A stretch of DNA of 47,396 nt, from positions 1 through 47,396 of the forward strand of contig NZ_WGDD01000035.1 in assembly GCF_015493435.1 (NCBI RefSeq). The letters run 5' to 3'. The notes beneath the pieces are model-generated. The model ran no database searches. It was not told the DNA's origin and saw nothing but the letters and a program-made list of their open reading frames with translations. Of the stretch, positions 12,031 through 33,846 are shown piece after piece (within the stretch, counting starts at the first letter, position 1; the number at the start of each line of letters is the position of its first letter). Position numbers and translations under genes: made by a program. The stretch comes from Sulfurovum sp. GTDB lineage: Bacteria > Campylobacterota > Campylobacteria > Campylobacterales > Sulfurovaceae.

Positions 12031-12056
12031 AAACGATTATATTGAGGAGTTCAACT

Positions 12057-13448
12057 ATGATGATAAACAGAGTGATACTGCTTGTGTCTCTTTCTTTACC
12101 CCTTGTTGCAGGTGTCAAGAATCTGACACTTCACAATGCCCTTCAAATGGTGAAACATGACAACCTTGAAGTGAAAATTGCACGCTTCAATGAGCAAATG
12201 AAGCAGACAGAAGTCAAAGTGGCCGAAGGGATGAATTACGGTAAGCTTGACCTCAGTCTCAGCGGGATGCGTTCCAATGACGCAGGGAATGTGTTCGGGT
12301 TTAAACTGCAAAGCAGGGAAGCAACATTCGGAGATTTCGGTGCTGAAGAATTTATGAATAATTTCGGAGCCTGTCAAAATGGCAATATGCAGGCATGTCA
12401 TGATATGTATACGCAGCCGCCGTCAAATTTAAACTATCCGGCAGCACGGAACAATTATCAGACCAAACTCTCCTATATGCTGCCTATCTACACCGGCGGA
12501 AAACTGACAGAATATAAACATATTATGGAGTCAATGTACCGTATGAGCAAATACGATACGCAAAAACTGATTAATACAAAGATTTATGAAGTAAAAAAAG
12601 CCTTTTATGACATCTCTCTTGTAGAACGATATATCGTCAATCTTTCCAAAATCCGACACAATATCAAAAAACTTGAGACGATTGTATTGAACATGGAAAA
12701 AGAAGGTTATGCAAAAGAGACGGATATTTTGGAAGTACAGGCACGGGAAGCCGAATCTGACAGTATGTACAACCAGGCGAGACTCAACAGGGAATTGGCC
12801 TATCAGTTTCTCTCTTTTCTCCTGAACAGAGATGTCAGCTCCATCAAAAAAGTACATGCGAAAGCCCCTATGCCGCATGTGACAAAGGCTATACTGGAAT
12901 CAAACAATATTGACATACAGAAAGCCAAGCTCGGCTTGCAGATATCAGAAATGTCTGTTAAGGCAAAAGAGGCAAGTTTTTTGCCTACTATCGGTGGTTT
13001 TGCAGAGTATGGAAGTGCAGACAATACACTGTTTAACGATTTCACAGGCAAGGATTCCTATACGGTGGGGGTACAGGCCAAATGGAATATTTTCAACGGC
13101 GGACAGGATGATGCGAAACTGGAGAAAGCAAAGCTGAAACGTCTTCAGGTCCGGGACCAGGTAGCATTGGCACGAAAAGGTATTGCCCTTAAAGCCAAAA
13201 AGCTCAAAACAGAAATTTTAAGTGCCGATGACGATATCAAAAGTTATAGCAAACAGTTGAAATATGCCAAAAGAGTGTATGCAAACTATCGTACACGGTA
13301 TGAAGAAGGCATGGCTTCAATCTCTGATGTTCTGATCCAGCAGTCCAAGGAGCTTGAATCACTTTTGAAACTTTTAACAGTCGTCAATAAAAGGAATACC
13401 AAAGTATTTGAACTGGAAAGTATTGTAAATGCAGGAGGAAAAGTATGA
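12057..13448 (+). CDS. TolC-type outer membrane efflux protein
   Basis: Outer membrane channel of an RND-type export system, about 463 residues. A signal peptide (RVILLVSLSLPLVAG) is followed by two outer-membrane-factor repeats with long alpha-helices, for example EVKKAFYDISLVERYIVNLS near 180 and the closing half KAKLGLQISEMSVKAKEASF near 300. A segment near residue 105 contains two cysteines eleven apart (ACQNGNMQAC), unusual for this family and possibly a disulfide in the surface or equatorial region. The ATG at 12057 is preferred over a TTG at 12042, which is itself part of the GAGGAG ribosome-binding region. The stop overlaps the adaptor gene by 4 bases. The exported substrate cannot be read from the sequence. 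Confidence 0.88.
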   Translation: MMINRVILLVSLSLPLVAGVKNLTLHNALQMVKHDNLEVKIARFNEQMKQTEVKVAEGMNYGKLDLSLSGMRSNDAGNVFGFKLQSREATFGDFGAEEFMNNFGACQNGNMQACHDMYTQPPSNLNYPAARNNYQTKLSYMLPIYTGGKLTEYKHIMESMYRMSKYDTQKLINTKIYEVKKAFYDISLVERYIVNLSKIRHNIKKLETIVLNMEKEGYAKETDILEVQAREAESDSMYNQARLNRELAYQFLSFLLNRDVSSIKKVHAKAPMPHVTKAILESNNIDIQKAKLGLQISEMSVKAKEASFLPTIGGFAEYGSADNTLFNDFTGKDSYTVGVQAKWNIFNGGQDDAKLEKAKLKRLQVRDQVALARKGIALKAKKLKTEILSADDDIKSYSKQLKYAKRVYANYRTRYEEGMASISDVLIQQSKELESLLKLLTVVNKRNTKVFELESIVNAGGKV

Positions 13449-14242
13449 AAAAGATAATAACACTGATGGCTGTGGCATTGCTGACAACAACGCTGCAGGC
13501 CGTAGAGATTGACCTGAGCGGGTCAGTCGTTTCGGACAACCAAAAGATGATGACAAGCCGCTATATGGGATTTGTGAAAAAGATGGCTGTTTCGGAAGGC
13601 GATATCGTTAAAAAGGGACAGTTGCTGTATGAGATCGATTCCAAAGATATCGAATCGGCAGAACGCCAGGTCGAGCTGGCCATTTCACAGGCACGACTGG
13701 CCTTGCAGATGAATGAAAACCAGTACAACAATGTATTGTTGAATCTGGCAAGACACAAGCGTCTTTATGCGAAAAAGATGGTTTCCAAGTATGAACTCGA
13801 AACACTTGAACTTGCAGCGAAGAACCTGAGAGATATGGTTAAAATATCCAAGGAACAGGTCAAACAGGCTTTGGCGAAAAAAGAGGAAGTCCTCAACCAG
13901 TACAAGTATTTGCGCATTACTGCTCCGAATGCCGGAGTGATCGTTGCGAAAAAACTCAACGAGGGGGAAATGGCGATTCCCGGTATGCCGGCAGTCATTC
14001 TTACCGATCTCAGCCATTTGAAAATTTTGGCGGCCGTAGCTGAAACAGATCTTCCCTATATCAATCTTGGGAAAAAGGTAGAGGTTGAAATTCCTTCACT
14101 GGCTTTGAAAACAACCGGAAAGATATCGTCTATCATCCCAAGTTCCAATCCTATGACCCACAAGTTCAAGATCAAAATAGAGTTTGACCATAAAGGCAAA
14201 TCGGTCTATCCGGGCATGTATGCCAAAATCATAATCAGGTAA
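13445..14242 (+). CDS. Periplasmic adaptor (membrane fusion protein) of the RND system
   Basis: A HlyD/AcrA-type adaptor that bridges the inner-membrane pump and the outer-membrane channel. It has 265 residues, at the short end for the family. Parts in order: a cleavable signal peptide (MKKIITLMAVALLTTTLQA); a lipoyl half-motif (YMGFVKKMAVSEGDIVKKGQ); a coiled-coil hairpin at about 80-140; the second lipoyl half (YLRITAPNAGVIVAKKLNEG); and a beta-barrel domain ending in SVYPGMYAKIIIR. It has no lipobox, so it is probably soluble or held by the complex. It overlaps the TolC gene by 4 bases and precedes the pump by 2. A paralogue with the same plan lies at 23149-23949. Confidence 0.9.
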   Translation: MKKIITLMAVALLTTTLQAVEIDLSGSVVSDNQKMMTSRYMGFVKKMAVSEGDIVKKGQLLYEIDSKDIESAERQVELAISQARLALQMNENQYNNVLLNLARHKRLYAKKMVSKYELETLELAAKNLRDMVKISKEQVKQALAKKEEVLNQYKYLRITAPNAGVIVAKKLNEGEMAIPGMPAVILTDLSHLKILAAVAETDLPYINLGKKVEVEIPSLALKTTGKISSIIPSSNPMTHKFKIKIEFDHKGKSVYPGMYAKIIIR

Positions 14243-14244
14243 GT

Positions 14245-15873
14245 ATGATGGCTGAAAAAAACGAATATCAGGTAACAGACTATGCGGGAAAACTGGCGAA
14301 AGGTTTTTTACACAATCCTTTAACCCCCATACTGGGTATTTTCCTTTTGCTGATGGGATACCTTGCCCTCAATATTATGCCGAGAGAAGAAGATCCGCAG
14401 ATTGCCATTTCAGGCGGTGCGGTGATCGTTCCGATGCCGGGAGCTACACCGAGAGAAATTGAAAATATCATTATCAATCCTCTGGAACGTAAACTCAGGG
14501 AAGTCAAAGGGATCGAGCATATCTACGGTATGGCAATGAACAATGTCGGGATCGTGAATGTCATGTACTACATTGGCGAGAACCGGGAGGATTCCAACCT
14601 TAAACTGTATGACAAAGTCATGCAAAATATGGATCTGATGCCAAAAGGGGTGATGCAGCCGCTGATAAAACCCTTTGATATCGACATCGACATCCCTATT
14701 GTGACGGTAGCATTTTATCCGAAAAAAGGCAGTAAAGTTGATGATGTTCAGCTTTTCGATATCGTGCGCAGGATACAGCAGAAAATCAATGCAGTAAAAA
14801 ATGTCGCCAAAACAACGGTAGTGGGTGCGCGCAAGGCGCAGTACAATATCCAGGTAGATATGAGCAGACTTTCTGCCTATCACCTTTCACTGGGACAGAT
14901 CATGAAAGCGGTTCAGTCCATTGCAGTAGATGTGCCGGATGTCAAAGGGCGTACGAAAAAAAATGAACTGGTTGTTTTCGGTGTTAAAAATGCTATTGAG
15001 AGTGTGAAAGATGTAGGGTCTGTCATTGTAGCGCAGTATATGGGATCTCCGATCTATCTCAGAGATGTTGCTACGGTAACGGAAGGTGTGGATATACAGA
15101 ACTTTAAAACAGCCAAGATCCGATTTAAAAAGGATATGAAGGAAAGCAAACTGGGTACAGAACGTCATCAGGTAACACTTACCGTAGCCAAACTTGCCGG
15201 TACCAATGCCGTTTTTGTGGCAGATGATGTACTGGAACTTCTTAAAGAACACAATGCGGAATTTGCCAAAGAGGGTATCGGCTATCTTGTAACAAGAAAC
15301 TACGGGAAACGTGCGGATGAAGCGGTCAACGAACTGATGCACCACTTGATCATCACGATTGTCATTATTGCCTTGATGCTTGTTTTCGCACTGGGATGGA
15401 GAGAATCTATCATCGTTACATTTACTGTACCGGCGATCCTTGCGATCACACTTTTTGTTGCCTGGCTTACCGGGCAGACGATCAACCGTATTACACTTTT
15501 TGCCTTCCTGCTTTCACTGGGGCTTCTGGTGGATGCGGCGATTATCGTTATCGAAAATATCCACCGGCATCTGCATGCACATGATGTGGAGAAAAAAGAA
15601 ATGGATGAACTGCTGATCGAAGCCACTGACGAAATCGGTGCACCGACGAACATCGCAACACTTGCGATCATTCTGACGATGGTACCGATGGCATTTGTCG
15701 GCGGGATGATGGGGTCATTCATGAAGCCTATCCCCTACAACGTACCCGTAGCGCTTGTTGCTTCGCTTTTCGTGGCATATATTTTTACCCCGTATTTGAG
15801 TTTGAAGCTCTTGAAAAAACCTGAGCACAAACATCACCATACGAAACATAAAAAAGACAAGGAGGTTAAGTAA
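14245..15873 (+). CDS. RND efflux pump, N-terminal half (TM1-TM6)
   Basis: The first half of an RND inner-membrane transporter, 542 residues. It has TM1 at about 32-52 (PLTPILGIFLLLMGYLAL), a periplasmic porter region with PREEDPQIAISG and the MPGATPREIENIIINPLE segment, then TM2-TM6 at about 370-520. The TM4 proton-relay motif reads GLLVDAAIIVIENI, with Asp430 followed by alanine. AcrB-like pumps have two aspartates here, while metal exporters of the CusA type also have D-A. The protein stops after TM6 with a Lys/His-rich tail (KHHHTKHKKDKEVK). Full-length RND pumps are about 1040 residues, so this is half. It would have to assemble with the product of the next gene. Confidence 0.88.
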   Translation: MMAEKNEYQVTDYAGKLAKGFLHNPLTPILGIFLLLMGYLALNIMPREEDPQIAISGGAVIVPMPGATPREIENIIINPLERKLREVKGIEHIYGMAMNNVGIVNVMYYIGENREDSNLKLYDKVMQNMDLMPKGVMQPLIKPFDIDIDIPIVTVAFYPKKGSKVDDVQLFDIVRRIQQKINAVKNVAKTTVVGARKAQYNIQVDMSRLSAYHLSLGQIMKAVQSIAVDVPDVKGRTKKNELVVFGVKNAIESVKDVGSVIVAQYMGSPIYLRDVATVTEGVDIQNFKTAKIRFKKDMKESKLGTERHQVTLTVAKLAGTNAVFVADDVLELLKEHNAEFAKEGIGYLVTRNYGKRADEAVNELMHHLIITIVIIALMLVFALGWRESIIVTFTVPAILAITLFVAWLTGQTINRITLFAFLLSLGLLVDAAIIVIENIHRHLHAHDVEKKEMDELLIEATDEIGAPTNIATLAIILTMVPMAFVGGMMGSFMKPIPYNVPVALVASLFVAYIFTPYLSLKLLKKPEHKHHHTKHKKDKEVK

Positions 15874-17597
15874 TGAAAGGTTTGGAAAAATTCATTTACG
15901 GTATCCTTGGCAGCAGAAAGAAAAAAACACTGGTCATCGTATTGACCGCGATAGCATTTTTTCTCTCTTTGATGATGTTCCCTACCAAAATGGTACTGGC
16001 TAAAATGCTTCCGGGGAAAAGTGACAATACCTATTCGGTTTATGTCACAACACCGACAGGCTCTTCCATTGAACAGACAAATGCAGTCAGCCAGTGTGTG
16101 ATAGATATACTCAAAAATGAAAAACAGGTGATGAACCTTGAACTGTTCCTTGGGCAGGGAATACCGCTCGATTATGCAGGTCTGGTGAAGGGTGCTTCTA
16201 TGAAGCATACTGAAAACGTATCTGAAATTTCCGTAAATCTTACGGATAAGCATACCCGAAAAGAACCTTCTTTTTTAATGACACAAAGGCTCAGGCCTAT
16301 TGTGAAAAAGAAATGTCTTCCTATTGTAAAAGGTACCAAAATTCAGTTCATAGAACAGCCAGCGGGGCCTCCTACACTGGCATCTATCGTACTTGAAGTT
16401 CATGGTGACGATATTGATAAAATGAGAAAGATCTCGGTTCAGGCAGCCAATATACTTGCCAAAACAAAAGGGCTGGTAGATATCGATGTAATGATGGATG
16501 ACATTTATGACAAGTACGAACTCATACCGGATGAAGAAAAAATCGCTTTGAGCGGTTTGAGTGTCGAGCAGGTGAACAATATTCTCTACCTGGCTTTTGA
16601 AGGAATGGTCATTGCACACAAGAATTCCAAAAATGCACCTGACCAGATACCGATATTCCTGATATTGCAGAAAAAGAGTAAAGCTCTCAATGGAAAATCG
16701 GAGCGTATTCTCCAAAGCAAACTTTCGTCTTTGAACCTGATGAATATGAAGGGTATGATGGTGCCGCTCAGTGAAGTGGTTACGATCAGAAAAGCCAAAT
16801 CAAGTCCGATGATCATGCATAAGGATCTTTCAAGAATGATCAATGTCACAGCGGAGACGGATATGGTTTCCCAAGTCTATCCTCTGCTTGCGGCAAGAGA
16901 AAAAATGATCAAAGCTTTTTCGAAAGACTATACTATCAAAAAGGCAGGATTTACGACGTACATGTTTGACCTTTATCTGACTGACAAAAAAACAGGAGAA
17001 AAGTTTCTGCTGCGCTGGGATGGTGAAATGAAAGTGACACTTGATACCTTCAGGGACTTAGGCGGTGCATTTATTGCAGCATTGCTGCTTATTTTCCTTC
17101 TGTTGGTGATCTATTACAAGAGTTTTATGATTTCGGGTATCATCCTGCTGGGATCATTCCTTTCTCTGATCGGGGTGATCGTCGGACACTGGGTGGCCAA
17201 TTTCTTTACAAGTGAAACGTTCTTCCTTACTGCTACCTCTCTGATCGGCTTTATTGCCCTGATGGGGATTTCGTCGAGAAATTCCCTATTGCTGATAGAC
17301 TTTGCCAAATCACTGATGGAGTGCCACGGTATGGAGAAACGCGAAGCTATTGCCGTGGCAACAGCGACAAGAGCCAAGCCGATTGCCCTGACCGCTGTCG
17401 CGATCATACTGGGTTCTGCACTGCTTGCTTCCGACCCTGTATTTGGCGGGCTGGGAGTTGCACTGATCTCCGGTACAGTGGCGGCTGTCTTCGTCTCACT
17501 GCTGTTTGTTCCGGTGCTGATGCATAATGCCAAAGCGATGGATTTCGACCTGAGTGACCATTGTGATCTTAAAAACGATATCTCTATCACAAAATAG
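15873..17597 (+). CDS. RND efflux pump, C-terminal half (TM7-TM12)
   Basis: The second half of the same pump, 574 residues. It begins just before TM7 (KKTLVIVLTAIAFFLSLMMF), carries the second porter region (LPGKSDNTYSVYVTTPTG, comparable to the start of the second repeat in full-length pumps) and ends with TM8-TM12. In TM10 the segment MGISSRNSLLLIDFAKSL has Arg469 where AcrB has the relay Lys940. The start ATG shares one base with the preceding TAA, and a GGAGG ribosome-binding site lies at 15861-15865 inside the upstream gene. This is an organised two-gene arrangement, not a simple frameshift. A strong terminator follows. Confidence 0.88.
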   Translation: MKGLEKFIYGILGSRKKKTLVIVLTAIAFFLSLMMFPTKMVLAKMLPGKSDNTYSVYVTTPTGSSIEQTNAVSQCVIDILKNEKQVMNLELFLGQGIPLDYAGLVKGASMKHTENVSEISVNLTDKHTRKEPSFLMTQRLRPIVKKKCLPIVKGTKIQFIEQPAGPPTLASIVLEVHGDDIDKMRKISVQAANILAKTKGLVDIDVMMDDIYDKYELIPDEEKIALSGLSVEQVNNILYLAFEGMVIAHKNSKNAPDQIPIFLILQKKSKALNGKSERILQSKLSSLNLMNMKGMMVPLSEVVTIRKAKSSPMIMHKDLSRMINVTAETDMVSQVYPLLAAREKMIKAFSKDYTIKKAGFTTYMFDLYLTDKKTGEKFLLRWDGEMKVTLDTFRDLGGAFIAALLLIFLLLVIYYKSFMISGIILLGSFLSLIGVIVGHWVANFFTSETFFLTATSLIGFIALMGISSRNSLLLIDFAKSLMECHGMEKREAIAVATATRAKPIALTAVAIILGSALLASDPVFGGLGVALISGTVAAVFVSLLFVPVLMHNAKAMDFDLSDHCDLKNDISITK

Positions 17598-18399: not shown

Positions 18400-21300
18400 T
18401 TATTTAAACACTTTCCCACAATCTCTTATGATCGCACCCGGTACAGTAGCTATGGTCATGAACTCTGACATTTGAAGCAGCGGATACATAACAGAGATGT
18501 AATATTTGGGTTCCATGATCTTGGCTTCGCCGTTTTCTATGAGCACGGGGTAGGGCAGCAGTGCGGCATTGTTCGTACCGATACGGCTGATGAACTTGTT
18601 CGTGCGTCTGCCCAGCAGGACGCCGATGAGGGTTGCCCCATTATCGAGTTTTTGTTCAAAGACAACTTTTTTATTATGCTTGATCTTTTTGAGAAGATTA
18701 TTCCCTCTTGCAACTACGACCATATCCTGGTATTGAGGCATTCCGTGCATGAACTGGTATTTCGGCAAAAGCTGGAATTTCAGTTTGTCTTTGGAGTTCA
18801 ACAGATTATCGAAATTGCTTGTGATCTTTTTAAGTGTCGCTTTTGCCGCTTTGTCATTATAGTTATCCTGGAGAAATGCTTTTGCCATATAGATAGGGTT
18901 GGTAATACTGATATGATGATCTTTTTTATTGACAAGCAGGCGAAGCGATGCTGCAAATCCGCGGTTTTTTTTACTTGCTTCCTTTGTGAGTTCTTTATCG
19001 GTAAAGACAATGGAAACCAGTTTTCCTTTTTTGTCAAGCGGTGTGACGGAAAGGATGGAAAAACCTGCTTTTTTCAAACGTTTTTTAGCCTCTTTGACCT
19101 CTATGAATTTGCCTCTGATGTAAGCCGAAACCCTTCCGTGGATCACTTCGCCGATATTGGTTGCTGTATTCTGCGCTTTTTGTTTTGCCGCTCTTTGTTC
19201 AGGCGGAATGTAGTTTGGAGGCATTCGTTTTGAAAATTTGATGGAACGGTCGGCAATATCCTGGCTATTGTATGTTTCCACTTTGACAGGCTGAACCGGT
19301 TTAGGAGGCTTTGGTATGGTTATCTTAATTGTTTCGCCGCCTATTTGAATTGTTTCGCCTTCCTGCTTTGACTGTACAGCAGCTTTTTCCCCGGTTTTCT
19401 TAAGAGCTGCAGGTGCTTCTGTGCCTTTTTTCACAGGGGTGGCAGCTTCAGGTTTTGTTTTCGCTGCCGGAACATGCTCTCTGGTTTGGGTTTTGTTTGC
19501 CGTGACGGTTACAGCCAGTGGTTTGGGTGTTTCGTTGAGCGGGTTGACATTTTCTACGGCGACCATACCCATTGAAGTGAGGATTTCCGGAATTTCTTTG
19601 TCGAGTTTGTCTATCCATTCGACCCGTTTCTTGCTGGTAATGTGCAGTGTATTTTTGACATTGGCAAGTGTCGGCATCCCTATGACCATCTGGTTGGAAT
19701 CTTTTTTGATGTAGACATACATGGTACAGGGTGCAAAAAGGCCTGCATCCGGGCGTGCACCCTTTGTATCAAATACATTGTATGAATAACTCAGGTGACA
19801 GAGTGAATAACTCCAGAAGGCATCAAAACCTCCAATAACGTCTTCTGCATCATCATTATCCATAAAGTTATGGAATCCGGCTATAAGATAGTGTTTGTCA
19901 ATGAATGCAAGTTCAAATTTGTTCTGGAACTCTTCGATAAAGTCGTCCATATCGGTATCATCATCTCTTTTGAAAGTATAAATGAAGTTGAGCATTTTCT
20001 TTTTGGTGGCATTTTCATATGGTATCTGTTTTACGGTGTATTTGAGTCCTTTAGCTTTGAAAAATGTTTCAATCTTTTTATCCAGAGGGGCGAAAGAAGC
20101 GGTAAATTTTCTTTTGACCGTTTCATTGTTGATACCGAGAATATCCAGCATGGCTTCAGGTGTCAAGTGCCCTACATGGGTGACTTTGTCAGTAAGCTTT
20201 TTATAGATGAGCATATTGAAAGGTGAGAAACCTGCGATGCGCGGATCGATATTGAAAAGCGGCATGACGACACTGTCATCGACAGCGGGAAGGAAGCTTA
20301 GTACATCGAGGACAGTTGAGCCGTATTTGGCTTTGTACTGGTCATTGACCCGGTGATGCGGGTCTGCCATGTTGAAGCCGACTGATTCGATCTCTTTTTC
20401 AACCAGCTGATTGTACTGTTTCTCTGCTTTACCCTCTATCACATACATTTTAGCAAGAAATTTTTTCCCGGTTTTGGAAGCGGAAACTGCTGCAGGAGTT
20501 GTCTCTGCTGTCTTGGCAGGTGTTGTTTTTGCAGGTGTTGTTTTTTTGAGCAGCGTCAAAGGATTGACGTTTGGAATAGGCTTCATACCGATCTGTTTCA
20601 GCAGTGCGGGGATCTCCGTGTCAAGTTTTTCTACAAGCTTGACTCTTTTTTCGTCTGTAATACCCAATGTATCAGACCAGTTGTGCAACCTGTACATTCC
20701 GACGAAAAGTTTATTGCTTCCTTTGGGAATGAACATATACATGGTACACGGCGCAAACAGCCCTGCCAGGGGGTGAGCCCCTTTTGTGTCGAACATATTG
20801 TAGGAAAATTCCAGGTGGCAGAGGGAGTAGCTCCAGAATGCATCGTACCCTTTTAGGATTTTCTTGGCATCCGGTGTGCCTTCCATGAAGTTATGATATC
20901 CAGCTATCAGATAATTTTTATCGATGAATGCTGTTTCAAACTTGTCCTGGATCTCATCCATGAAATCTTCGATATCATCGACAGGTTGAAAGTCGTATTC
21001 GTATGTGAGCATAGTTTGTTTTGGCAGTTTTTTTACAGGCAGATAACGCTTTTTCCCGCCCAGCTCTTTTTCAAGCATTGCATTGAGCGGCTTGAAGCTT
21101 TCAGTAAATGTTTTTCGGACTTTGTCATTTTTGATACCCAGTATGTCAAGCATGACTTTGGGACTGAGGTGGCCTACCTGTGTATACGGCTCATCAAGCT
21201 TTTTGGCAATGAGCATATTGAACGGTCCGAAACCGGCGATGCGCGGATCGATATTCAGCAGGGGGAGCATCATTTTGTCATTGACGACAGGCATGAAGCT

Positions 21301-21549
21301 GAGTACATCAAGTACAGTCGATCCGTATTTCTTTTTGTACTGGTCGTTGACCCTCTTGTGGGGATCGGTCAAATGAAAACCGATTGTTTTGATCTTTTCT
21401 TCCATCAGAGCGTTGAACTTGTCCTGAATATTGCCGTCGACAGTGTAAATAACAGCAAGCGAGTTGTCACTTTTTTCATTAGCCGAAAAGAGTGTGGCGG
21501 GCATCAGGAGTATGATGCCAAGAAGGAGCACTTTTCTAAAAACAGACAT
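18400..21549 (-). CDS. Large exported protein with duplicated DUF302-like module
   Basis: A 1049-residue protein with a signal peptide (VLLLGIILLMPATLFSA). Residues of about 31-335 and 366-680 are tandem copies of one module; both contain RVNDQY.KYGSTVLDVLSF and NIDPRIAGF.PFNMLI. Each module has two DUF302-like segments: GPFNMLIAKK..TQVGHLSP..MLDIL, and a later one with AGLFAPCTMY followed by a basic strand. Between the two segments both copies keep FWSYSLCHL, so a Cys-His and a later Cys are invariant. A Lys/Pro/Ala-rich linker (about 680-790) leads to a different C-terminal domain (about 795-1049) shared with the 637-residue protein at 31933-33846. The function is unknown. A periplasmic or outer-envelope location is inferred from the signal peptide. 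The DUF302 assignment is from remembered family features. Confidence 0.78.
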   Translation of the reverse strand: MSVFRKVLLLGIILLMPATLFSANEKSDNSLAVIYTVDGNIQDKFNALMEEKIKTIGFHLTDPHKRVNDQYKKKYGSTVLDVLSFMPVVNDKMMLPLLNIDPRIAGFGPFNMLIAKKLDEPYTQVGHLSPKVMLDILGIKNDKVRKTFTESFKPLNAMLEKELGGKKRYLPVKKLPKQTMLTYEYDFQPVDDIEDFMDEIQDKFETAFIDKNYLIAGYHNFMEGTPDAKKILKGYDAFWSYSLCHLEFSYNMFDTKGAHPLAGLFAPCTMYMFIPKGSNKLFVGMYRLHNWSDTLGITDEKRVKLVEKLDTEIPALLKQIGMKPIPNVNPLTLLKKTTPAKTTPAKTAETTPAAVSASKTGKKFLAKMYVIEGKAEKQYNQLVEKEIESVGFNMADPHHRVNDQYKAKYGSTVLDVLSFLPAVDDSVVMPLFNIDPRIAGFSPFNMLIYKKLTDKVTHVGHLTPEAMLDILGINNETVKRKFTASFAPLDKKIETFFKAKGLKYTVKQIPYENATKKKMLNFIYTFKRDDDTDMDDFIEEFQNKFELAFIDKHYLIAGFHNFMDNDDAEDVIGGFDAFWSYSLCHLSYSYNVFDTKGARPDAGLFAPCTMYVYIKKDSNQMVIGMPTLANVKNTLHITSKKRVEWIDKLDKEIPEILTSMGMVAVENVNPLNETPKPLAVTVTANKTQTREHVPAAKTKPEAATPVKKGTEAPAALKKTGEKAAVQSKQEGETIQIGGETIKITIPKPPKPVQPVKVETYNSQDIADRSIKFSKRMPPNYIPPEQRAAKQKAQNTATNIGEVIHGRVSAYIRGKFIEVKEAKKRLKKAGFSILSVTPLDKKGKLVSIVFTDKELTKEASKKNRGFAASLRLLVNKKDHHISITNPIYMAKAFLQDNYNDKAAKATLKKITSNFDNLLNSKDKLKFQLLPKYQFMHGMPQYQDMVVVARGNNLLKKIKHNKKVVFEQKLDNGATLIGVLLGRRTNKFISRIGTNNAALLPYPVLIENGEAKIMEPKYYISVMYPLLQMSEFMTIATVPGAIIRDCGKVFK

Positions 21550-21689: not shown

Positions 21690-22445
21690 TTATTTGTGTG
21701 CTTCGTTGTCGTCAGCTACTTCTTTTACAGATTTTCTTGACTCTTTTGAAATTGTCTTAGTAGAGTCGTTGGCATTGTCAGAGATTGTTTTAGTAGAGTC
21801 ATTGGCATTGTCAGAAACATCTTTTACAGATTTTCTTGTCTCTTTTGAAATTGTTTTAGTAGAGTCATTGGCATTGTCAGAAACATCTTTTACAGAATCT
21901 CGTGAATCATTGGAAATTGTTTTGGTGGAATCATTGGCATTGTCAGAAACATCTTTTACGGAATCTCTTGAGTCATTGGAGACTGTTTTGACAGAATCTC
22001 TTGAATCGTTGGATACAGTTTTTGTTGCATCATTGATGTCTTTGGAGACAGAGACAGCAGAATCTTTCATGTCTTTTGATGCGATAGTGGTAGAATCTTT
22101 AAGATCTTTCGTTGTATTGGTAATGGAATCTTTTGTATCTTCTGATACTTCTACTGTTGCGTCCCTGACATCTTTGCTGGTAGATACCTGAGCTGTTTTA
22201 AGGTCGTCAGATACTTTAACACCTGTGTCTTTTGCGTCGGCACTGACGTTTGTTACCGTTCTTTCTGCACTTTTACTGGTTTCAACCGCACCGTCTTTCA
22301 TAGATTCGACACTGTCTTTCGCATCTTTACTCATACTGATACTTGCTTCTTTCATATCTTTGAACATATCTCCAAAGCTGAAGTCTGCATGTACACTTGT
22401 AAAAAGTGCTGCCGCTGCTACACATGAAATTACTATTTTTTTCAT
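21690..22445 (-). CDS. Exported LEA-like protein built of 11-residue repeats
   Basis: A 251-residue protein with a signal peptide (KKIVISCVAAAALFTSVHA). The rest is almost wholly low-complexity and hydrophilic, made of 11-residue units near D-x-x-D-S-x-K-x-[VI]-S-x, for example NDSRDSVKDVS and DNANDSTKTIS. It has no proline, cysteine or aromatic residue in the repeat part. This pattern resembles group 3 LEA proteins, which are disordered in water and form amphipathic helices on drying or near membranes. The start at 22445 (ATG after AAGGAAACC) is chosen over 22490, which would add 15 residues before a good signal peptide. A role in envelope stress protection is inferred; a coiled-coil surface filament is an alternative. 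Confidence 0.82.
   Translation of the reverse strand: MKKIVISCVAAAALFTSVHADFSFGDMFKDMKEASISMSKDAKDSVESMKDGAVETSKSAERTVTNVSADAKDTGVKVSDDLKTAQVSTSKDVRDATVEVSEDTKDSITNTTKDLKDSTTIASKDMKDSAVSVSKDINDATKTVSNDSRDSVKTVSNDSRDSVKDVSDNANDSTKTISNDSRDSVKDVSDNANDSTKTISKETRKSVKDVSDNANDSTKTISDNANDSTKTISKESRKSVKEVADDNEAHK
21744..21985 (-). repeat. Tandem 33/66-bp DNA repeats coding 11-residue units
   Basis: The segment GGCATTGTCA recurs at 21771, 21804, 21870 and 21936, that is with spacings of 33, 66 and 66 bases, equal to 11 and 22 codons. Near-identity at the DNA level shows recent expansion. Copy number is likely to vary between strains by slippage or recombination without breaking the frame. Confidence 0.85.
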
Positions 22446-22627
22446 CTGGTTTCCTTTTAATTGATTTTTTGGGTTCCACCATCTTAGCACCTAAACTTTA
22501 AATAAAAACTTAAATATTATAAAAAAATGTAATTAAATTTTATGATGATAATCAATGGAACTGTGTTATTAAAGATAATTGGTTACAATGTCAAAACAAA
22601 ATACCAAAGTATAAAGGAGATGTATAA

Positions 22628-23050
22628 ATGGAAAGGTTTTTACGTCACATTACGATGCTGACAGCAGCAACAACAGTGCTTGTCATGGCAGAAGGATACA
22701 CACAGGCGGACAGAATAGCGGACATGCAAAAGATGGCACAAGCCATGCAGGATATACAGTCCGGCTTTTTTTACAATAATGTCGATATTGTCAAAGCAGG
22801 GACAAAAGTGCTGAAAAACACGATCGTCAATGTAAGACCGATCGATTCAGAAGTGAACAATAAAGATATTTATGAAAAATGGCTCAACAATGATTTGAAA
22901 ATGACACATAAAATTCAAAAGAAGATCAAAAAGAAAGCAACAGTACTCGAAGAGCGTTTTGCAGACGGCGATGCGATTCAGGCTTTACAGGAATACAGCA
23001 GAATCGCGCAGCAGTGTATGAAATGCCATGTCCGTTTGAGAAAATGGTAA
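22628..23050 (+). CDS. Small periplasmic c-type cytochrome
   Basis: A 140-residue protein with an N-terminal signal segment (RHITMLTAATTVLVMAEG). It carries one heme-binding motif, CMKCH, about ten residues from its C-terminus (QQCMKCHVRLRKW). Mostly helical sequence with a single C-terminal CxxCH resembles the cytochrome c-prime/c556 layout; the exact subfamily is uncertain. A methionine-rich stretch (ADMQKMAQAMQDIQ) near residue 35 could supply an axial ligand. AAAGGAGATG gives a good ribosome-binding site. It is followed after 98 bases by the second adaptor gene, with no clear terminator between. The electron partner is unknown. Confidence 0.8.
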   Translation: MERFLRHITMLTAATTVLVMAEGYTQADRIADMQKMAQAMQDIQSGFFYNNVDIVKAGTKVLKNTIVNVRPIDSEVNNKDIYEKWLNNDLKMTHKIQKKIKKKATVLEERFADGDAIQALQEYSRIAQQCMKCHVRLRKW

Positions 23051-23148: not shown

Positions 23149-23949
23149 ATGTTGAAACTAAAAAATACTATTCTGTTCATACTTCTTTTTGGAAGCACAG
23201 TCTATGCAGGCGGAATTTCTCTGACCGGTACCATTGTGTCTGACGGACAGAAAATGATCGGAAGCCGCTATATGGGGTATGTCAAAAAGGTGTATGTCAA
23301 ACTCGGAGACAAGGTCAAGCGCGAAGATGATCTTTATGAAATGGAATCAGCAGAATTTGACATTATGAAGACACAGGCCAATCTGATGCTTGAACAGTCT
23401 CAGATCGCTTTGGAATACTGGAAAGACCGCTTGCGTGTGATCAATAAAAAGAAAGAGAATGTCAAAAAGAAATACGGCATGACCGGGTTTGGCATGGACG
23501 ATCTTGAAGGACAGATTGAAACAGTCAAGGCAATGCTCGAATCTACCAAAATTATGGTTAAACATGCGGCAGAACAGGTAAAACAGATGGCTATAGTGTT
23601 TAATTATCTTAAAATGAAAGCACCGGCAGACGGTGTTGTGGTACAAAAAAATATCAAAGTGGGAGATATGGTCATGCCCGGTATGCTGACCATAATGATC
23701 GTTGATACGGAACATCTTGAAATCGATGTTTCGCTTCCTGCGGGAATTATAGGAAAAATACACGAAGGCCAGCGGCTTGCAGTGGAAATACCTGCAATCA
23801 AGTACAATACGATCGGGAAGATAAAGGCCATTATTCCCGATGCAAACCCTATGACACACAAGATCAAAATGCGTGTCTCTTTTGACAAGGGAAAGAAAAA
23901 TATCTTCCCCGGAATGTATGCAAAAGTAATCATCCCGGAAGGTACGTAA
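23149..23949 (+). CDS. Second RND-type periplasmic adaptor without an adjacent pump
   Basis: A 266-residue HlyD/AcrA-type adaptor with a signal peptide (NTILFILLFGSTVYA) and the same plan as the protein at 13445-14242. Shared marks include SGSVVSDNQKMM versus TGTIVSDGQKMI, SRYMG(F/Y)VKK, the second lipoyl half (YLKMKAPADGVVVQKNIKVG) and the C-terminal FPGMYAKVII. The coiled-coil hairpin is longer and more basic (INKKKENVKKKYGMTG). No pump or outer-membrane gene is next to it. It may serve the pump at 14245-17597 as an alternative adaptor or work with a distant one. It follows a cytochrome gene and precedes an oxidoreductase. Confidence 0.85.
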   Translation: MLKLKNTILFILLFGSTVYAGGISLTGTIVSDGQKMIGSRYMGYVKKVYVKLGDKVKREDDLYEMESAEFDIMKTQANLMLEQSQIALEYWKDRLRVINKKKENVKKKYGMTGFGMDDLEGQIETVKAMLESTKIMVKHAAEQVKQMAIVFNYLKMKAPADGVVVQKNIKVGDMVMPGMLTIMIVDTEHLEIDVSLPAGIIGKIHEGQRLAVEIPAIKYNTIGKIKAIIPDANPMTHKIKMRVSFDKGKKNIFPGMYAKVIIPEGT

Positions 23950-31932: not shown

Positions 31933-33846
31933 ATGAAACTGTATAGATTTGTATTGTCATTTTTGCTGATTGTCGGGTACCTGCAGGCCGATGTACATTC
32001 CAATGAAGCCAAAACGGAACTGACCGGTGAACTGTACGGTTCAAAAGGGAATCAGGAAGCCCGGATCGATGCCCTGATCCAAAAGATCGGTTCGATCGGC
32101 TTCAGTACGGTTGCGGCAAACAAACATATAGAAGTGCATTATTTGAATAAATTCAAAGAGAAAAATGTAGAAATGATCTCTTTTTTCGATATTGTGAACA
32201 AAAAGAAAATGAGACCTCTTTTACTTAAAAATCCTGATTTCGGAGCCTATGCTCCTTTTAATTTCCTCGTGTATAAAACGCTTGATACCAAAGAAGACAA
32301 CAATACCTGGTACGGACATCTTGCTCCGGATACAATGTTGAATATCATCGGAGAGAAGGATCCTGCGACAAGAGATCAATTCAAAGCGATGGTACAAGGG
32401 TTTGATGACCTGGTCGTCAAAGAGATGCAGCCTACCATGACAAAGAAATTCGTACATTCCAAACCACTGCCCGAACATGGTTTGACAAAGATGGTCATGA
32501 AGTTTGATGCGCCGGATGATATGGAAGAGTTCATTGAAGATTTTGTGATGAAGCATGACGGTGCTTTTTCCAAACATGATTTTATCATTGCAGGGTTTGT
32601 GGACTATAAATTTGAATATAGTGATATGGATCTTGATTTTGACAAATATGATGCCTACTGGGTTTCACTGCTGTGCCATTTTAAATTTTCCAATTCTATT
32701 TTCAACAGAGGCATTCCTGAAGCAGGTATGTTCGCACCGTGTTCGATCTACTTCTATATCCCCAAAGGCAAAAATGAATTGCATGTGGGCTATGCCAGTG
32801 TCGATAACTGGATCAATGCACTTAACTTCAAAGACCAGAAGACCATCGACTATATGAGAGCGATCGATGCTGAAGTGATCGAGACGTTCAGAGAACTTGG
32901 TTTTGAACTGGAAGCCCAGGGTGCGAAGGTGCCTGAAGTGATGTCCCTGGATGAAGAGAACCGACAGCTTAAGGCAAAGGTCAAAGCACTGGAAGCACAG
33001 ATAGAAGCGATGAAAAAAGGTGAGACCACAGTAGAAACAAGACCGCAGGCAGCTGCGGTAAAAGCAGTACCTCAAAAGGTTTTCAGAGGAGCCAAACTGC
33101 AAATAGGCGCAAAGGCACCCAAAAAACTTTCAACCTATTATGCGGCCAAGTACCAAACCGTAGATGCGCTCAAGGCAAAACTTGAAGCCAACGGATTCAC
33201 CGTACTGGCTGTGACACCTATATTGGCAGGCAAAACGGTGGTAACGATTACCAATGAGGAATTGCAGAAAACCAATACCTTTCTTGCCACACTGCATGTG
33301 CTTGTCAACGAAGGAAATGAGATACGTGTGCAGAACCCCTCCTATTTCGGAGCAGCCTACCTTCAGGACAAATACAAATATGGACAATTCGTTAAAACAC
33401 TGGAAGCATTGCAGGCTGCTTTGGGCGATATGTACGAAGTCAAAGAGCAGTATGAACTTGCCGATCTCCCCAAATACCAGTTTATGTTCGGCATGCCGTA
33501 CCTGAACGATACCATTACTGTAGCAAAAGGAGATAATCTGGCTGCAAAGGTCACAGGCAAAGATGCAGTCAAATATGTAGCCTATACGCTCAAACTGCCG
33601 AACGGTGACATGATCGTCGGGCATAAGCTGAGAAACAGGACCAACAAGTTCCTGTTGAAAGTCAATGCGGCACGTGATGCGGATATTCTTCCCTATGAAT
33701 CGATGATCAAGGGGAAGAAAGCAGTGATGCTTGATCCCAAATATTATCTTGCACTGTCTCTGCCTCTTTTGAGTATGTCTGACTTTATGAAAATCGCTTC
33801 TGCTCCCGGAGAGATTGAAAAAGATGTCAAAAGAGCCTACAAATAA
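31933..33846 (+). CDS. Exported DUF302-like protein, single-module paralogue
   Basis: A 637-residue protein with a signal peptide (YRFVLSFLLIVGYLQA). Residues of about 30-330 are one copy of the module that occurs twice in the 1049-residue protein at 18400-21549, with YAPFNFLVYKT..WYGHLAPDTMLNI, LLCHFKFS and AGMFAPCSIY; the Cys-His and later Cys are again conserved. A coiled coil follows (EENRQLKAKVKALEAQIEAM, about 340-365). The C-terminal domain (about 395-637) matches that of the larger paralogue: LPKYQFMFGMP, LRNRTNKFLLKV, DILPYESMI, LDPKYYLALSLPLLSMSDFM. The shared C-terminal domain suggests a common binding or anchoring role. No enzyme motif is recognised. It stands alone between dnaE and icd. 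Confidence 0.8.
   Translation: MKLYRFVLSFLLIVGYLQADVHSNEAKTELTGELYGSKGNQEARIDALIQKIGSIGFSTVAANKHIEVHYLNKFKEKNVEMISFFDIVNKKKMRPLLLKNPDFGAYAPFNFLVYKTLDTKEDNNTWYGHLAPDTMLNIIGEKDPATRDQFKAMVQGFDDLVVKEMQPTMTKKFVHSKPLPEHGLTKMVMKFDAPDDMEEFIEDFVMKHDGAFSKHDFIIAGFVDYKFEYSDMDLDFDKYDAYWVSLLCHFKFSNSIFNRGIPEAGMFAPCSIYFYIPKGKNELHVGYASVDNWINALNFKDQKTIDYMRAIDAEVIETFRELGFELEAQGAKVPEVMSLDEENRQLKAKVKALEAQIEAMKKGETTVETRPQAAAVKAVPQKVFRGAKLQIGAKAPKKLSTYYAAKYQTVDALKAKLEANGFTVLAVTPILAGKTVVTITNEELQKTNTFLATLHVLVNEGNEIRVQNPSYFGAAYLQDKYKYGQFVKTLEALQAALGDMYEVKEQYELADLPKYQFMFGMPYLNDTITVAKGDNLAAKVTGKDAVKYVAYTLKLPNGDMIVGHKLRNRTNKFLLKVNAARDADILPYESMIKGKKAVMLDPKYYLALSLPLLSMSDFMKIASAPGEIEKDVKRAYK

Follow-up and report, generated by a model that had tools for sequence, protein, structure and literature searches.

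Fused DUF302 repeats with an invariant cysteine pair in predicted exported proteins of Sulfurovum and their genomic association with sulfur oxidation

Two related proteins encoded in a Sulfurovum contig

The window analysed here, a stretch of 47,396 nucleotides from Sulfurovum sp. (contig NZ_WGDD01000035.1), encodes two paralogous proteins of 1049 and 637 amino acids, both of which look exported as judged from their sequences; a hydrophobic, export-signal-like N-terminus can be read in ORF 18400-21549. The proteins are built of modules of about 300 residues, followed by a linker and a C-terminal domain (CTD) (Table 1). The two modules of the larger protein are 53% identical over 333 aa (BLASTP, E 1.6e-127), the module of the paralogue (ORF 31933-33846) is 29-31% identical to either of them (E 2e-45 to 2e-55), and the CTDs of the two proteins share 36% identity (E 1.6e-50). 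The original prediction, made from the DNA alone, had described such a tandem pair of related modules, and its details were found in place: the almost identical stretch, with DPRIAGF at residues 101 and 435, is present in both modules, LCHL lies at residues 243 and 583 and AGLFAPC at residues 262 and 602, and the third copy, in the paralogue, keeps both motifs as LCHF at 247 and AGMFAPC at 264. In a phylogenetic tree of the modules, for which deep support is poor, modules 1 and 2 do not group as nearest neighbors, and separate module duplications are seen in loci L068 and L069/L070. The same genome, whose closest named matches include a Sulfurovum MAG at 86% identity, contains a fourth module, encoded by a solitary 309-aa gene on another contig (C3), and a stand-alone CTD gene on contig C20. 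The CTD had been considered special to the 1049-aa protein, which does not hold given its presence in the paralogue and on C20.

Of 81 loci, 33 contain relatives of the exported repeat protein encoded next to the larger gene, for which no Pfam match was found; most often these lie immediately upstream of module-CTD genes, and some loci have more than one copy. The RND permease of the window is split into two adjoining genes (14245-17597, forward strand; 542 and 574 aa), each corresponding to a part of the ACR_tran model, and this split is conserved in the relatives.

Table 1. Positions of the module-containing proteins, their domains and neighboring genes in the window
Feature	Position	Strand	Description
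1049-aa protein, predicted exported	18400..21549	-	Signal-like N-terminus, module 1, module 2, Lys/Pro/Thr-rich linker, CTD
Module 1, fused pair of DUF302 folds	20578..21474	-	Cys244 codon 20818-20820, Cys268 codon 20746-20748
Module 2, second fused DUF302 pair	19558..20469	-	Cys584 codon 19798-19800, Cys608 codon 19726-19728
CTD of the 1049-aa protein	18403..19164	-	First half of DUF302 fold, second half with the same secondary-structure order; no conserved Cys
637-aa paralogue	31933..33846	+	Signal-like N-terminus, one module, coiled-coil-like linker, CTD
Module of the 637-aa paralogue	32005..32910	+	Cys248 and Cys270
CTD of the 637-aa paralogue	33094..33843	+	
Exported repeat protein	21690..22445	-	Directly upstream of 18400-21549 on the same strand; repeats such as DSTKTISNDSRDSVKDVSDNAN in 21690-22490; conserved neighbor in Sulfurovum and relatives
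Small exported protein with one CxxCH	22628..23050	+	Divergent from the repeat protein; conserved neighbor; no Pfam match
HlyD-type membrane fusion protein	23149..23949	+	Conserved neighbor
TolC-type protein, membrane fusion protein and RND permease in two genes	12042..17597	+	Synteny kept in Sulfurovum and near relatives

The modules and at least half of the CTD have DUF302 folds

The suggested assignment of the modules to DUF302 was borne out by profile and structure comparisons. The PF03625 profile has a curated cut-off of 23 bits, which the 1049-aa protein passes with 33.4 bits from two matched stretches, the best at residues 584-624 in module 2; the 637-aa paralogue, at 21.2 bits, falls just under the cut-off and yet is homologous to the larger protein. 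The matches are located in different halves of the module, near PFNFLV in the 637-aa protein and over LCHL...APC in the 1049-aa protein. An AlphaFold2 model of the module, built on 90 sequences, had a mean pLDDT of 97.3. Its first half matched the DUF302 structure 1q9u with Z 10.5 and rmsd 1.9 over 128 residues, followed by 7tj1 (Z 9.7) and 1j3m (Z 9.3), the next unrelated entry scoring Z 6.0, and a Foldseek comparison of the module model with 1q9u gave E 4e-6 and TM 0.85 on the 1q9u length. The two halves of the module are homologous at the profile level (hhalign, 97.5%, E 8.2e-12). The module is therefore a fused pair of DUF302 domains, the second of which is assigned to DUF302 by sequence, from the PF03625 stretch at 584-624 and the half-to-half alignment; what had been taken for a single unit of roughly 300 residues is two repeats. 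The alignment of the halves sets PFNMLI opposite APCTMYMF, so the PFNMLI stretch that had drawn attention to the duplication corresponds, in the cysteine-less half, to the APC segment. Searches for relatives of solved structure by sequence, and for credible Pfam or NCBIfam families matching the 1049-aa and 637-aa proteins, returned none beyond DUF302, and no well-characterised enzyme family was found in this way. PDB entry 7tj1 is titled putative fluoride transporter CrcB; its match to the DUF302 folds is about as close as that of 1j3m, and the title looks like a misannotation.

The CTD was modelled with a pLDDT of 93, and its residues 15-116 matched 1j3m (Z 10.2, rmsd 2.2 over 98 residues), 1q9u (Z 10.1) and 7tj1 (Z 9.2), with the next entry at Z 6.7. 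According to the model, the first half of the CTD has the DUF302 fold; by sequence, its comparison with single DUF302 proteins gave an hhalign p of only 0.003. Helices and strands follow one another in the second half as they do in the first, and on this ground the second half may be a DUF302 domain as well, the hhalign p being 0.17 against the first half and 0.08 against single DUF302 proteins, within a range of 0.08-0.2 for these comparisons. The stand-alone CTD had no Pfam match, and the alignment of CTDs contains no conserved cysteine. A unique new C-terminal domain was rejected, as the CTD occurs as a gene of its own beside module genes and its first half has the DUF302 fold. Taken with the fold of the modules, this suggests an architecture of DUF302 repeats throughout, presumably including the second half of the CTD. 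The seemingly undescribed combination of two modules and a special domain thus comes down to DUF302-based parts that are encoded by separate neighboring genes in other genera.

The cysteine pair is invariant whereas the following residue marks a clade

Conservation of the cysteines in orthologues was checked in 90 aligned modules, which reach down to 18-19% identity to the first module. C217 and C241 (model numbering), which in the modules of the window lie in LCH[LF] and APC, 22-24 residues apart, are invariant in all 90, and the other invariant columns are P75, P82, A239 and P240. C217 is followed by His in 79 modules and by Lys in 11, and the two types form separate clades with support of 0.99 and 0.97 in a tree of 134 modules. 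Of the marks originally proposed as invariant, the two cysteines stand, whereas the histidine characterizes one clade. Similarly, the importance attributed to the cysteines is upheld and the suggested heme-type site is not: such a site is unlikely, since the modules contain no CxxCH motif and an entire clade has Lys in place of His.

Only the second DUF302 domain of the module keeps the cysteines. The pair aligns with ELCNP...LPC in the product of a 128-aa single-DUF302 gene of the Sulfurovum genome that has no export signal and, in a weak match (E 0.16), with EVCNP...LPC of Bacillus 1q9u. As both of these proteins seem not to be exported, judging by sequence and source, a chemical rather than an exclusively structural role of the cysteines is favoured. 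The obvious alternative is that they form a structural disulfide stabilising an exported protein, and that the module, free of thiol chemistry, does no more than bind partners or lipids. This explanation agrees with the apparent export of the protein and with the DUF302 topology, which we take to be TBP-like: with the strand order of the model, C217 at the end of the third strand and C241 at the start of the fourth would be neighbors. Structural disulfides are, however, rare in cytoplasmic proteins, and the same pair is found in the two cytoplasmic-looking DUF302 proteins; moreover, the paralogous first half, which has lost both cysteines, folds alike, and a disulfide would leave the association with sox genes described below unexplained. 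We consider this explanation unlikely.

Exported single-DUF302 proteins of the relatives mostly retain the first cysteine only. One such protein is encoded in the same genome (C51:21341-21529, L001) and has CNP but LPL in place of LPC; this half-site form is common in relatives of Sulfurovum.

Distribution and genomic context of the modules

Among 298 Campylobacterota genomes, 44 hold modules and 30 hold CTDs; of 280 candidate loci for the module, the 80 that were retained belong to Campylobacterota by name or carry no finer name. A related DUF302 gene is present in a plasmid record of Sulfurovum mangrovi. Of the 84 modules in the 298 genomes, 45 have soxB or soxC at a distance of no more than 15 kb, 30 of them being near soxB, where uniform placement would yield about 0.9 by chance, and 15 more near soxC. 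At least one of these two genes is present in 36 of the 44 module-bearing genomes and in 28 of the 254 genomes without a module (Fisher p 2e-21, a value inflated by the relatedness of the genomes). The remaining eight module-bearing genomes have neither gene, which leaves room for a different function of the CTD-linked branch, in another sulfur process or elsewhere. Proteins identified by HMM next to the modules include SoxB (843 bits), SoxC, SoxY, SoxZ, a SoxH-related metallohydrolase, DsrE, thioredoxin, OprD and FadL.

Four arrangements were distinguished. (i) A module of the Lys clade ends a series that runs from soxB through genes for an OprD porin, the SoxH-related metallohydrolase, a thioredoxin or cytochrome, and DsrE, in this order. 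(ii) In Sulfurimonas and Sulfuricurvum, soxC, soxD, soxY, soxZ and genes for a thioredoxin and a MOSC protein are followed by adjacent Lys-type and His-type modules. (iii) In the same two genera, FadL, a His-type module and the CTD are encoded by neighboring genes. (iv) In Sulfurovum and its relatives, a module-CTD fusion, sometimes with a second module, lies beside the genes for the repeat, small CxxCH and HlyD proteins. In short, Sulfurimonas and Sulfuricurvum encode module and CTD side by side and Sulfurovum encodes them as a fusion, and three loci of near Sulfurovum relatives (L069, L070 and L072) combine (iii) and (iv), with fused genes followed by FadL. In the genome of the window, soxCDYZ are located on contig C47, soxB had no match, and no sox genes were found near the two module genes of the window.

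Two further loci deserve mention. In a single-contig relative (L135; G221:C1:1763645-1772259), a unit of about 3.9 kb comprising a module, a DsrE-like protein, two cytochromes and a part of the metallohydrolase is repeated three times in a row beside soxB, with equal match scores of the module copies and equal spacing of 3,883 bp; this is either a recent amplification or an assembly effect. In L126 (4205-10031), a solitary module has soxZ on one side and a thioredoxin gene on the other, and so stands inside the run of sox genes and not at its end.

The statement that DUF302 lacks a settled function was right; it is the genome context that now suggests a part in periplasmic sulfur oxidation. 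The context of the window itself could suggest that the cysteine pair, joined by His in one clade, binds a metal such as copper or zinc, and that the protein is a metallochaperone tied to the RND/TolC/HlyD exporter and the small CxxCH protein. The exporter genes and the CxxCH protein are conserved neighbors in Sulfurovum, the neighboring HlyD genes match the CusB/HlyD barrel-sandwich model, and the cysteine is followed by His in every one of the 50 modules that are fused or in tandem and in 27 of the 29 that lie beside a CTD gene. Against this, Lys replaces His in the sister clade next to soxB, and the exporter is a neighbor only in Sulfurovum and its near relatives, its place being taken elsewhere by FadL or sox genes, which makes a metal site quite unlikely. 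Also in line with the location of modules in sox clusters would be an enzyme of polythionate metabolism, such as a hydrolase, and a role in trithionate oxidation has been speculated upon in print for the Acidithiobacillia gene located between soxA and soxB (PMC5037610). The invariant positions (prolines, one alanine and the two cysteines) do not, however, form an enzyme-like polar set, and a role confined to polythionates would not explain the FadL-module-CTD operons; we regard this explanation as highly improbable.

A possible role in sulfur relay

The window proteins probably bind and pass on sulfur on the outer side of the inner membrane, since they consist of DUF302 repeats with an unchanging cysteine pair and their relatives are encoded in sulfur-oxidation clusters. 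In the reading we favour, and to which we give an even chance, they act in the periplasm of Campylobacterota as accessories to sulfur oxidation, with a thiol site that takes up or relays sulfane sulfur; the context is observed, whereas the chemistry is deduced from it. The module would act like a DUF302 dimer in a single chain with one thiol site, which may bind zero-valent or sulfane sulfur, as a persulfide or polysulfide, derived from S8 or sulfide. The sulfur would reach the thiol through an outer-membrane channel of the FadL or OprD type, and the next carrier in the periplasm (DsrE-like, thioredoxin-like or SoxYZ) would then accept it so that it can be oxidised. The CTD, like the doubling of modules in some Sulfurovum, might give each molecule additional docking surface or a larger number of sites that carry sulfur.

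Published data on Sulfurovum indicum bear on several of these steps. According to the parts of that study considered here, dsrE, soxW and soxH1 beside soxB are up 2.2-3.8-fold on thiosulfate, in a gene order (dsrE, soxW, soxH1, soxB) that fits arrangement (i), soxCDY2 are highly expressed and induced on S0, and OprD-like porins are proposed for sulfur uptake; the opening of S8 and the activation and uptake of elemental sulfur are there called unknown (PMC10045233). These expression data concern neighboring genes, and a module beside dsrE, which arrangement (i) would lead one to expect, is not mentioned in these parts. More specifically, the FadL channel, the double-DUF302 thiol protein and its CTD partner could form a previously undescribed relay that brings zero-valent sulfur of S8 or polysulfide into the periplasm and loads it onto Sox carriers, a proposal that we put forward as tentative and rather unlikely. 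If true, it would fill the "currently unknown" step of S8 use in Campylobacterota. Sulfurovum and Sulfurimonas, both members of this phylum, are dominant among the sulfur oxidisers at vents and in redoxclines. With its single invariant thiol pair and its ties to soxB, soxCDYZ and FadL, the family offers a concrete protein and two residues to test.

Comparison with known systems

The solved DUF302 (PF03625) structures 1q9u, 1j3m and 7tj1 share the fold of the first half of the module (Z 9.3-10.5) and of the first half of the CTD (Z 9.2-10.2), and the cysteine pair of the module stands where ELCNP...LPC does. These solved proteins are single domains of about 130 aa, whereas here two domains are fused per module, one of them with cysteines, and a second, cysteine-less DUF302-like unit, the CTD, is attached.

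DUF302 genes in sox clusters have already been published, with no assigned function (PMC5037610, PMC11034169). In Acidithiobacillia, a 191-aa DUF302 protein, predicted to be a homodimer and speculated to take part in trithionate oxidation, is encoded between soxA and soxB (PMC5037610, PMC5248467), and in Sulfitobacter a DUF302 gene lies between soxF and soxH (PMC11034169). The family described here shares with both its place inside a sulfur-oxidation cluster. The Acidithiobacillia protein is found in clusters lacking soxCD, whereas here double-DUF302 modules lie beside soxB and beside soxCDYZ. The family also differs from the published cases in that the presumed dimer is fused in one chain with one thiol half, and in its CTD partner and its links with soxCDYZ and FadL. 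Among the papers searched, none joins DUF302 with Sulfurimonas or with sulfane sulfur. SoxYZ and DsrE-like carriers are encoded by neighboring genes, and cysteine-bound carriage of sulfur between partners is proposed in both cases; the fold of the module is, however, unrelated to theirs, it has no GGCGG swinging arm, and its sulfur binding is a deduction. DUF302 has been noticed in the sox clusters of other phyla for years, and the present family makes this old puzzle testable.
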